This document shows positions 37,401-49,400 of a stretch of DNA of 64,000 bases, piece by piece. The stretch comes from Diphasiastrum complanatum (Eukaryota; Streptophyta; Lycopodiopsida; Lycopodiales; Lycopodiaceae): NCBI GenBank assembly GCA_029204225.1, contig CM055093.1, positions 34,110,525-34,174,524 on the forward strand, given 5' to 3'. The notes beneath the pieces are model-generated. The model was given only the letters and a program-made list of their open reading frames with translations, had not been told where the DNA came from and ran no database searches. The position numbers were made by a program, and so were the translations under genes. Positions within the stretch are counted from its first letter, which is position 1; each line of letters opens with the position of its first letter.

Positions 37401-40400
37401 GGATGCAGCAAATTTGACGAGACAGTATCGGCAGCGCACGATCTTCTGTCTGGTCTTGTTGGACTTGTCGGCAACCCGCCTGACAATGTCTACCTCGTCC
37501 CACAGACCGGAAAGGTCGGATTACACCATTGCGATGGAGAAAACTAGGGACAAAATGCAGATGAAGCTAAAGCTGCAAGGATGGAACGCTGGAAAAAAAA
37601 CAGCAGGGTACACTGTGTGAGAGACGTTGAAAATGGGCGAAGGCAGGTTCTTGCAAATCAGATGCAAGGCAGGGTGGTCTGTGGGCGAAGGGCGACGCAA
37701 ATAAGATGCAACGCAGGGAAGGCAGGGCAGCAAAACCAGTAGCAAAGGCAAGGCAACGATGGCTGCAAAAAAACTGGGAGAGAAGAAGCGAGGGGGGCGG
37801 GTAGATTAGGGATAGATTTAAATTTTTTTTTTTAAATATTAATTATATTATATTATTATATTATGGTACCGCGGTACCATCATGGTACCACGGTACAAGT
37901 ACGGTCCCGCGGTACCGGGATCCGCGGTACCCAGTACCGCGGGACCTATGGTATGTACAAATGCAATACGCACATAGTATAAGATCTAACGTGTAGTACA
38001 AATGCAATACCTACATAGTATAACACCTAAACTTGTGAGACGATGCCTGATAGATACTAAACCTGAGGTGTACTTTATATAAAAATGTCAGAATGTGAAA
38101 TATGAAGACTACACTTTGTCTCCTATGTACAAAAAATGTATACGAAATGTTCTAGAAATCATGAACTGCATCGTTGTCATGTGTTCAACATTATTATGAA
38201 ATTCATGTTTAGAATATTGGTACGGGTTCAACATTGTTAGGAGATGCATGTTTTCGAATGTTGCATTTTAAAATTGTAGTGGAACTATGGCTCAACATAA
38301 TCGAGCCTAGAGTTTAGATAAATGGGAAGCTAAGGGACTTGCCTGGCTTCAAGTGTTTGTCTATTTTCTATTTCTTTTTCGCTCTTTGTAGCATAGGGTT
38401 TAAGCTAATGGTTTAATGTTCTTTTCTCTTTTCACATTGTTCTTCTCATTTTTTCTTAATGGTATTCGTTCGCTTCTTTGTCAATGCAAGGTCTATCTAA
38501 GATGACTTCAAAGTTTCTCAAAAACCAGTTAGCGCTCATTGTTGTATTGCACACACTTGTTGTTATGTTGTGTACTATCCTAGACATAACACTGATTAAA
38601 TATAAAAAAATGATTCTTGGGTAGTTGCTGGCTAGATTGTCTTTTTTAAGTGAAAATTGTAATCGTATATTATTGTTTGAGCATATCCTTATGACATTGC
38701 TAATTTTTCAACCTGAATCTGTGAACTTTGGACGTATTACACTCCCCAAAGAGATATCAATGTTTTCTAAAAAGCTTGTTGAAACTGCTCTTTAGAGGTT
38801 CTTTCAACAGTCAAATATAGCAAGATGGTCAAAATACTAGGATTTGTAAAAGATAAAGTCTTAAGAATCATTTTTCCCTAGCCTGCTATTTTTATAGGCA
38901 TTGCTTGGTTCTGATTTGATGAGTGTTTTTTTTTTTTTTCATTTTGTTGCATTTGAATTCAAATTGATGATAGTGTTTATTGAAAAAGTAGTTTAGTTTT
39001 CTGTGTAATGTATGATCCATAGATGCTCGTTTTGATCTAGAACGCGATCTGGAATGCATTCCGAATCTTGTTCTGGGAAATCCAATAGGGTTTCTCGGAA
39101 CCTGATCTGCTGCAATGTTTTGCCATTGGTTATTTCTAACGGATTCTTTTGAAACCCAGTTAGCAACTTATGCTTGGGTACTGATGAGACATAAGCAATG
39201 CTATTTGGCTAAGATTTTTTGTTTATTGAATTTTTTATTGTTGTTTTGACTTAGATCCTTTGACTTTTTTGAGTTGCTCGTATATTGTTTCTAAGGTTTA
39301 CCTTATGACATCACTGACTTCTCTATATAAATTTGTGAAATTGGATATATTCTAATTCACAAATAGATATATTGGTTATTTCTAACGAACTTCATGATCA
39401 TCTTGAATGTGTGAAGGTTCATTCTTTGTTTTGCTAGTTTTTTTTTTGTTTGGGAATTCCATCTTTTTTGTATTGTTTTGTACCCCATTATCCTTATTTT
39501 TTCGTTATGTATGAAATCACTGAGAAGATTGCCACTGGTTATTTCCAATGCACTTCATGATCATTTTGGATGTGTAAAACTTTATTTTCTGTTTTGCTCG
39601 TTTTAAATTTTCTTTCGTCATCTTTTTTGTCTCGTTTTGTCCCCATTTTCTCTTGTAATTCCGACCTCTAGAAGTAGAGGTATACGGCAGGTCGATAAAG
39701 TATTAAATTTGGAAGCTTTAGCTAGCCAGGGTTGGGTGAAGGTTGAATGAGAGTACTGATTTTTGGCACATGGTTGTAAAAAGTGATGAGCTTTTTGACA
39801 ATACAACGTTGATAGAAACCCCTTGAGTGTAATAGTTGAGAAGCTGATGGCATATTTTAGTGACATGACTCCTTTGGAGTTTTCTAGCAATATCGGGATT
39901 CGATTGATCGAGTGATGTAAAAGAGAATAACTATAGTGCTAAAGATCAAGTGGAGTTAATTTTTTTTTTTTGTGAAGTTTTTGTTTGTATCTAGTATGTT
40001 GGCAATAGTAAATAGTCATGCTAAGCATGCATGTTAATTTTGCTAGGGTCTAGCCGTGCTTGGAGAAGGTCTGTCGTCGAACAGTGCTGACATTGAAAGG
40101 ATGCAATTAAAAATGGAGGGAGTGTATGTGTGGCCTTTCCGACAACTTCGGATGGTTTTGAGCAAGTAAGTATCTTAATTCATCTACCTTGCCACAAATA
40201 TGAGTGACTTGTTGAGAGAGAGAGAGAGAGAGAGAGAGAGAGAGAGAGAGAGAGAGAGAGAGAGAGAGAGAGAGAGAGAGAGAGAGAGAGAGAGAGAGAG
40301 AGAGAAAGCTTTATTTAACGTCTTTTCCATGCCATAAGGCATATAAGACCGAACAATACATCAAAAGAAATGGAAACGAGATGGATCGATGCCGTCAACC

Positions 40401-46400: not shown

Positions 46401-49400
46401 ATGCCACAACTGCATGTATGATATCCTCCTGGAAGCCACGATCTCGAAGCCTCCGTATCAGTAAATGTCTAGGCACCGAGTCAAAGGCTTTGCGAAAATC
46501 CTCAAAGCAGCAGTAAACACGCTCTCTCCTGGCCTTAGCCTCCTCAATGATGGCTCTCAAGGTGAAAATATGATCGGATGTAGTATATCCTGGTCTGAAA
46601 CCAGCTTGGCCAATGGCATGCAGTGCTCTAGTATCCATCTCTGTACTGATCTCTGGCTGAAGAATAGAACCATAGACCTTGGCAAAGAGGTGGCTGATCA
46701 TGATGGTACGATAGTTGTCGGCTTTCATGGGATCACCGCCTTTATGGATAGGATAAATAAGGTTTGTGGACCAAGGGGAGGGGAAACCAGATGTAATAGT
46801 GCGGTTAAATAGGAAAGAGAGAAAGGGTGAGAGGATGTCAGCGGCCTGCTTCAAGAGTTTAGCCTCTAGCTCATCAATGTCTTTGGCCTTATGTAGGTTT
46901 AACCGGTCGATGGCCTCTTCTACTATGTCTGGAGAGAATATATTAGAGGTACATGTGCATGGGTGTGTGGGAAGTGGAGGAGTATCAGGTACAGTGTACA
47001 ACGATGTGGCATAGATCACCCATGTGCTAAGATCTGTGATCCGGGGTGGAGGTGCTTGTGAGAGGAATTTTTGCCAAAAGAATGCGACGAGGAGCTAAAG
47101 AGAAGGTCCATCATCTTCTTCCCCTGGCAAATTTCATATGCAATTTTCTTTCTGCGGGTGGTTCTACAATATACACGAGATAAGTCCTTTGCAAGATGAG
47201 GGAGGTGGCAGCGTGCATAAATCAAGTTCAGATGAAGTTGGTTACATTCGTGGTCATACCAGGGGTTATGCGGTCTATGTCGTAAGTGCTTGGGCCGTGG
47301 GGATGGAAAAGCAAGGGATGCAGAGGTATGCAGGGTCCGGACAAGAAAAAGAGACTGGTCTGCCAAAGTAGCTGCATAGGGAAAATGAGTCAGGAGATCA
47401 GATAAGGTTTCCCTGTACAGAGGGGTTTTTTGAGGTCTCTGGTCTCTATGTAGTAAAGAGTCATTGTCGTTGCCACTATTATCTGATCTAGCGTCCGTCC
47501 ACGATCTCCTGCGGGAGAAATATGATGTGATCTTGAGCTGTGCATCAAGGTGAATAGATGGTTGGTGTAGGTCCTGTCGCAATACAAACATTTTGATGCA
47601 ATCTAGACCGACAACTTCTTTTTCATCTATTGTATGGAGTTACTCATAAGTAGCTAAGTCTATTGATTGCTCTTTATTAATACATGACGTGAATGTCAAT
47701 TCATTTGACATGACCTCCCTCATCATTAACAAAATTTCCCTATCTTAATGCTATGGCCTGTAGATATAGTAGTTTTTTGGTTTACAATGGCGTTGATCTA
47801 TGGGTTTTTTTCCTATGTTTTGTAACATATGAAAAACTTTCCATTTGGAGTTATCTCAGTTCAATAAGGAGCCTTGTTCATGTTATTATTTAGGCTGACT
47901 TCAAGTCTTGAAATATTTACTGTTGTCAGGAAAGATTGATATTGGTAATGTGTGAGGTTGAAGCTTTTAGAAAGTAAGTAATCTAATCTAGTATTCTTGA
48001 TGCATCTAGTCCCTTAGATGGAGAAGCTAACAAACCGGAGGAGTTTTTTCCATTGAATCCCTATCACTTGGTAAGCATTTTTTACTCCTTTTTGGTTTTA
48101 CATTCCATGATGTAATTCTTAAATTCATTTGAACAAGTTGGATAGCTAGAAGGTCAATCATTTTATCCTGTGGCACATATGAAGAGCTGTGGCCTCTGGC
48201 AATTGAGGCCAATAACTAAATTATGCTAGTAGGATTGTTGGAATTTGTAGGCCAACATAGATATGATGAACTTGAACCCTTGTAATCTAAAACCATGTTG
48301 ATGATTAGCTTGTCCAAGTGTTAGAACTTACACTTGAGTATTCTCTTTATTTCAAATTAGCTCAAGCAGATATGTAGCTTGTATAATTGTCTTACTTATT
48401 TTTAGATCATACGGAAGATAGAACAAAGTTAAGAACTTAGTGGACGAAACTTGAAAGGTACATGAAGAATAAGGAGCTAGGGAGTGCCAACATTTCTAGA
48501 GCTTTTCATATCTCGATACGCTGATGCATGTCCTCTTTGCTGGCTGATACATCAGCTCGGCATTTTCTCCTTGCAGGTGTTGCAAGAATCTCCAAGGGAG
48601 CATTTGCAAAGGAATGGAAGAAGTTGTAATGTCACTTCCTAAAATTTAATTTATGCTACTTGCCAATGATTTTTTTGCCTAAGATGCTCTATGATCCAAT
48701 AATTTGTTATTATGTTAGATTGGAAAGGTATCTTACTTGTGTTTTTTCTTGGTTTTCATTCATTTGAACTAGCAAGATAAAATGTAACAATTAGTGTGTG
48801 AATCATTTGCTTTTCCATCCATTGTTTTGTAAGGCTTGACACAAATTGAAGCACTTCTGTTTCAAGGGTTTACTTGGTTTTCCATGGCCTTGTTAAGGAT
48901 CACTTAAATTTCTACTCACTGATTTGTAAGGCTTGATGGAAATTGAATTGCCCTTTATCAATATACTATCTTGAATGGTTGTTACTGCGATTTCCTCCTT
49001 TCTCCTTTGAACATGAAATTATTTTTTCATTGAGTACTATTTTTGTGTTAGTATTTTTTGTGCTGTCAATGTTACGTTGCTTGAATTAGGAAATCCTAAG
49101 AGGCTTAGATTTTATTTTCCCCCCCTTTCTTCCCTACAATGTTTACAGGGTACTTGTTTGTGGAATAGATTGATACAAAAAGTGATGTAACACCACCTCA
49201 AAAGGGTACACTTTCATTTTAGAGGGGATAATAGAGTAGATAGGAAGTCGTTTTATCAACAATATCAGTAACAAGAAGAAATGGGTTGCATCCATGCCTA
49301 TTCATATATTTTCATAACTATCTGAAGCATAGAATGCTATCAAAAGCATAGAAAGAAGTAAAGTCCTGACAACAATAATAATAAATTAGTGGGAGTGTAA

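Follow-up and report, generated by a model that had tools for sequence, protein, structure and literature searches.

(TC)n-tailed LINEs with a probable preference for (TC)n tracts in the lycophyte Diphasiastrum complanatum

The window analyzed here, a 64-kb stretch of the genome of Diphasiastrum complanatum, contains an intact gene of a BAHD-type acyltransferase on the minus strand (7817–9238; Pfam Transferase, E 1.1e-79), whose nearest relative is a protein of Diphasiastrum complanatum (69%; 34% for Selaginella). Two open frames on the same strand (35678–37439 and 60218–62018) resemble hAT-type transposases by eye, and two similar blocks with CCACGGTTC palindromes (30459–30829 and 51913–52250; 98% over 140 nt and 83% over 76 nt), with a like sequence at another locus (L034), perhaps represent a small DNA transposon. 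The minus strand also carries, from 47591 to 40214, a chain of five pieces in the order B-(TC)115-G-TTC/CTC-rich/(TC)27-D-(TC)69-C-F-(TC)46, followed by non-LINE DNA. An earlier note on this DNA had described a head-to-tail chain of LINEs in the same orientation. The chain is real, and its single orientation is borne out by all five pieces, but only B, D, and C bear ORF2, whereas G and F are ORF1-only units and not LINEs with a reverse transcriptase (RT); the succession of copies and tails given in the note has to be replaced by the one above, with C fused to F.

The chain begins with copy B (44624..47591), a LINE piece with an RT domain (Pfam RVT_1, E 9.5e-32) and an open frame of 769 aa (44710–47019), whose closest relative in the genome is at 97%. 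No tandem repeat was found at the 5′ end of B, and its first ~150 nt resemble, by eye, a fused piece of another LINE that is joined at about 47430. A (TC)115 tract (44394..44623) links B to copy G (43967..44393), a 5′-truncated ORF1-only unit recognized by its alignment with units E and F of the window and with those of loci L019 and L027; its homology begins ~6 nt past the tract. The linker between G and D (43739..43966) comprises TTC repeats, CTC-rich sequence, and (TC)27. Copy D (43001..43738), which consists of the 3′ part of ORF2 and the 3′ UTR, has 39 other places among the matches listed (94–96%); its relatives align from the 6th query base, with alignment starts at base 2–7 for all but one of the 40 places listed. 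The (TC)69 tract (42863..43000) is followed by copy C (41688..42862), an internal ORF2 piece without a tail of its own, which was identified by its genome relatives (82–88% across the greater part of the query, plus two of ~442 nt, both partial, at 92%), with alignments that start at nt 1–3 past the tract. C is joined directly, at 41688, to copy F (40306..41687; 5′ end approximate), an ORF1-only unit with an open frame of 257 aa (40549–41322), 39 other places among the matches listed (87–94%), and a (TC)46 tail (40214..40305) that ends the chain. Because no more than ~8 nt separate the 5′ ends of G, D, and C from a tract of TC or CTC/TC, three of the five are at a microsatellite; B and F depart from the earlier claim that every 5′ end would be exactly at one. 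The fusions of LINE pieces without a tract (window 41688 and about 47430; L016; L027) may reflect template switching or deletion.

The longer copy at locus L010 contains RVT_1 (9.9e-28) and Exo_endo_phos_2 (9.2e-06; 26.0 bits vs. a Pfam cut-off of 27.4), and the protein relatives of the LINE carry PF03372 and PF00078. Named relatives among the matches listed are from the ferns Adiantum and Ceratopteris and from Taxus; the PDB matches of the RT are R2 and L1. The domain content suggests that the family represents an APE-type non-LTR retrotransposon with endonuclease and RT in one ORF.

The 5′-truncated copies have one 3′ end in common, which in the 49 cases collected by motif (a mixture of loci fetched without regard to their flanks and pairs chosen for closeness) is made up of a hairpin, usually followed by TTAATAAAG, and a terminal run of pyrimidines that is (TC)n in most cases. 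A hairpin of this kind is lacking in at least one TC-tailed piece (window 53544–54563). Among 20 variant hairpins, 88.9% of the cells are paired and 10 cells are changed on both sides (2.9 in shuffles), values that none of 500 shuffles reached, and the pairs that carry double changes (4 vs. 2.2 in shuffles) are not unusually many (47 of 500 as high). Single folds of the hairpins of D (43028..43057, placed by fold and by the pair counts over the 20 variants) and F (40320..40349, placed by fold) are mildly better than those of shuffles (z −1.6). The paired changes argue that the hairpin, which is common to the LINE and the non-autonomous unit, may be maintained by stringent-type recognition. According to one study, the stringent-type L1 lineage of plants has a 3′ hairpin with compensatory changes that is common to non-autonomous elements, almost all L1 of flowering plants end in poly(A), and plant RTE end in (TTG)n or (TTGATG)n (PMC3747384). 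The present family resembles the stringent type in having a hairpin but differs in the sequence of the hairpin and the (TC)n tail; with their pyrimidine tails, its 3′ ends are of neither the poly(A) nor the RTE form.

The ORF1-only units share this hairpin and the TC tail (E, F, and G of the window; L019, L027, L038, and L043). Their number is large (1263 candidates, 40 of them scored), their identity reaches 94%, and at the DNA level little beyond the hairpin (the last ~45 nt) is common to them and the ORF2 copies. Alignment places unit E (23493..25231, plus strand), with the ORF1-only part at 23697–25097, between (TC)102 and (TC)67; no LINE 3′ end was recognized before the first of these tracts. 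The ORF1 protein has no relatives at E 0.001 in a large protein search and none in PDB, and its single-sequence fold (mean pLDDT 44.3) is confident in the coiled-coil part only. HAL1-like half-LINEs of mammals combine ORF1 with a LINE 3′ end and lack ORF2. The ORF1-only unit is similar but matches the RT copies over little of its DNA; this is a likeness and not descent.

The 5′ ends of RT copies elsewhere were assessed in 20 loci of 10 kb, fetched regardless of their flanks from 39 other places listed by RT similarity; 15 were counted, leaving aside two duplicates (L018 and L022, of L017 and L024) and three loci with complex 5′ ends (L016, L019, and L027). Six of the 15 lie ≤2 nt from a TC tract of at least 19 units (L010, L011, L012, L013, L020, and L028), one is where a LINE-like tail ends in a short TC run (L025), and two are 35–51 nt from a TC tract, behind C-rich DNA (L009 and L015). 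The other six are in ordinary DNA (L014, L017, L021, L023, L024, and L026). The 5′ flank, which is the target repeat in microsatellite-targeting LINEs, is thus at or near TC in nine of the 15 and not in six. With a chance of TC at a 5′ end of ~2 in 10,000, which allows 60,000 TC tracts per strand and 6 nt, simple arithmetic gives a probability near 3e-19 for six in 15. Some of the tracts have no recognized LINE 3′ end in front of them; the copy starts exactly at such a tract at L013 and close to one at L009 and L015, as do the ORF1-only units E of the window and that of L027. Unique DNA behind the tail and ordinary target-site duplications in most copies had been named beforehand as evidence that would speak against targeting: roughly half of the 49 3′ ends in the mixed collection have unique DNA after the tail, and no target-site duplication was seen in the nine loci compared, although one inside TC would escape recognition. 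With the TC repeat set aside, no word longer than 7 nt is common to the flanks of the same nine loci, and those of 7 nt are not at the ends.

Chains also occur elsewhere in the genome. A single exact 3′-end sequence is present at 4308 places (2113 and 2195 on the two strands), and at none in a backwards control. Among the first 100 of these, all on contig C1, successive 3′ ends ≤6 kb apart are on the same strand in 16 cases and on opposite strands in two, with 0.7 expected for each. All six same-strand pairs within 1.1 kb (five stretches fetched) are bridged by a TC tract; in five of them, LINE homology lies within ~12 nt of the linking tract, whereas at L033 it lies 136 nt past the tract, preceded by DNA that is ORF1-like by eye. 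Some copies are very short, with ~30 nt plus tail at L029 and ~45 nt at L030. In ten 3′ ends on C1 (of the first 14 listed, leaving aside three clustered and one more), LINE sequence directly follows the tail in three (L036, L041, and L042), follows weakly in two (L034 and L040), is present by eye ~48 nt downstream in one (L035), and is absent in four. The segmental duplicates L017/L018 and L022/L024 have no insertion difference at the LINE.

The 1.74-Gb genome has 78,382 starts of TC tracts of at least 10 units (39,303 on the forward strand, one phase) but only ~4030 recognizable LINE tails, a figure obtained by doubling the forward-strand count of 2016 because the reverse count repeats places. 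LINE tails account for ~5% of the TC tracts, yet for six of the nine TC junctions, suggesting that either tails of the own kind are favored or template jumping contributes. Of 20 tracts sampled at regular intervals (each fifth one) from the first 100 on the list for C1, one (L057) is by eye preceded by a LINE 3′ end and one (L060) resembles by eye the LINE 5′ region; none is followed by LINE sequence according to a search. The tails have medians of 75 nt inside chains and 72 nt at chain ends (24 inner and 25 end tails, split by hand and with weak cases included).

The identity to the closest relative provides a rough measure of age for three neighbor pairs, a number that is small, as is that of the 15 5′ ends. 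It amounts to 96% for D and to 88% over most of the length (92% over 442 nt) for C, to 89% for the upstream and 96% for the downstream copy at L011, and to 95% and 96% for the like-aged pair at L010; the closest relative of F among the matches listed is at 94%. The ages differ in two of the three pairs, with the younger copy upstream in D/C and downstream at L011, which is what would be expected if the TC on either side of a copy serves as target. The argument from age is weakened by the two partial relatives of C at 92% over ~442 nt. Stops and frame changes per aligned nt (B, 1/2586; D, 0/432; C, 3/990; L011, 13/2127 upstream and 10/3015 downstream; L010, 4/3273 and 3/1917) agree in direction with the ages, in numbers too small to carry weight.

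The LINE-free tracts in front of some copies and the differing ages in two of three pairs favor repeated insertion into (TC)n. We consider it probable that an APE-endonuclease LINE family of this lycophyte prefers (TC)n tracts for insertion, with a confidence held down by the weakened argument from age. This reading draws on the hairpin, the tail, the excess of TC at 5′ ends, the single orientation, and the chains elsewhere in addition to the LINE-free tracts and the age differences; the excess of own tails, the like-aged pair at L010, and the six 5′ ends in ordinary DNA speak against targeting alone, as do inner tails that are no shorter than end tails and LINE–LINE fusions without a tract. 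In template jumping, the RT would run past the 5′ terminus of a LINE RNA and switch to the (UC)n tail of a second one, laying down a chain in a single insertion event. It would explain the over-representation of LINE tails among the TC junctions, the similar tail lengths, the like age of the L010 pair, and the tract-less fusions (window C/F, L016 near 2700, and L027 at 4155); at L016, the copy downstream of the fusion has a nearly complete 5′ end. However, it leaves unexplained both the 5′ ends at LINE-free TC tracts (L013, L009, L015, and window E) and the differing identities to the closest relatives in the D/C and L011 pairs, and as a full account it seems rather unlikely. Targeting is more likely than template jumping, with a preference for own tails or some jumping on top. 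The proposal of the earlier note that the LINE both generates and targets (TC)n holds for the tails and for 5′ ends that are at TC far above chance, some of them without a LINE in front; it does not extend to all 5′ ends, and template jumping could account for some of the chaining.

A (TC)n-tailed LINE without target preference, with chains formed by coincidence or later rearrangement, would accommodate the six of 15 clear 5′ ends in ordinary DNA but is very improbable, because TC at 5′ ends and close same-strand neighbors are both far above chance. Misjoining of contigs at TC repeats, which is suggested by the length of some tracts (268 bp at L010) and the duplication of some loci, including on small contigs, is hardly credible, because several linking tracts are just 38–60 bp long (L020, L011, and L033), the truncation points vary between copies, and the orientation is constant; the assembly collapse that had been considered for the chain is improbable for the same short tracts.

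More tentatively, and with somewhat less than even confidence, we propose that the probable preference for (TC)n makes this a self-feeding plant system, in which the LINE favors (TC)n, the tails of related copies most of all, each insertion creates further landing sites, chains grow at scattered loci, and an ORF1-only partner uses the hairpin. In the probable reading of (TC)n targeting as such, the RT would recognize the 3′ hairpin and then TTAATAAAG, and the (UC)n tail of the RNA would anneal to the (GA)n strand where a tract is nicked and so prime reverse transcription. The cDNA, often 5′-truncated, would become linked to the (TC)n of the far side; nicking, priming, and joining are steps that we infer. 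Each insertion would leave a TC tract on both sides, where later copies may land, and chains in one orientation would result. The ORF1-only unit would be carried along by virtue of the same hairpin.

Kibi and Koshi are Tx1-lineage elements of fish that target TC and TTC repeats; the earlier note had placed them in the R1 clade of insects. The present family is like them in the target repeat, and a search of the open-access literature found no paper that names both in connection with non-LTR retrotransposons. Other animal LINEs that insert into simple repeats include Mino of the R1 clade, at AC repeats (PMC3124438), Dong, at (TAA)n, and TRAS, at telomeric repeats (both PMC2887409), and Togen, at (TG)n (PMC4640811). 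The common trait is a LINE at a simple repeat; the present family differs in its repeat, TC, in its plant host, in that only some copies lie at the repeat, and in that own tails are favored. RTE elements of Lepidoptera generate microsatellites and are described as inserting with target-site duplications and without sequence specificity (PMC2887409); they are alike in their truncated copies with simple-repeat ends but differ in the duplications and the non-specific insertion. No repeat-targeting LINE of plants was found in listings and a few passages of the open-access literature. Such LINEs are described from animals. The thousands of natural junctions of the present family allow a test of whether the identity of tail and target makes insertion self-reinforcing, and they could tell targeting from template jumping. 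Some of the TC microsatellites in the genome of Diphasiastrum complanatum are products of mobile elements.

On the plus strand of the window, a probable second chain (53544–59287) consists of a LINE piece, (TC)25 (54564–54613), and a longer LINE with a TTTC tail. The homology of the longer LINE to other copies begins only at 55118, and its start at (TC)25 is a candidate junction.
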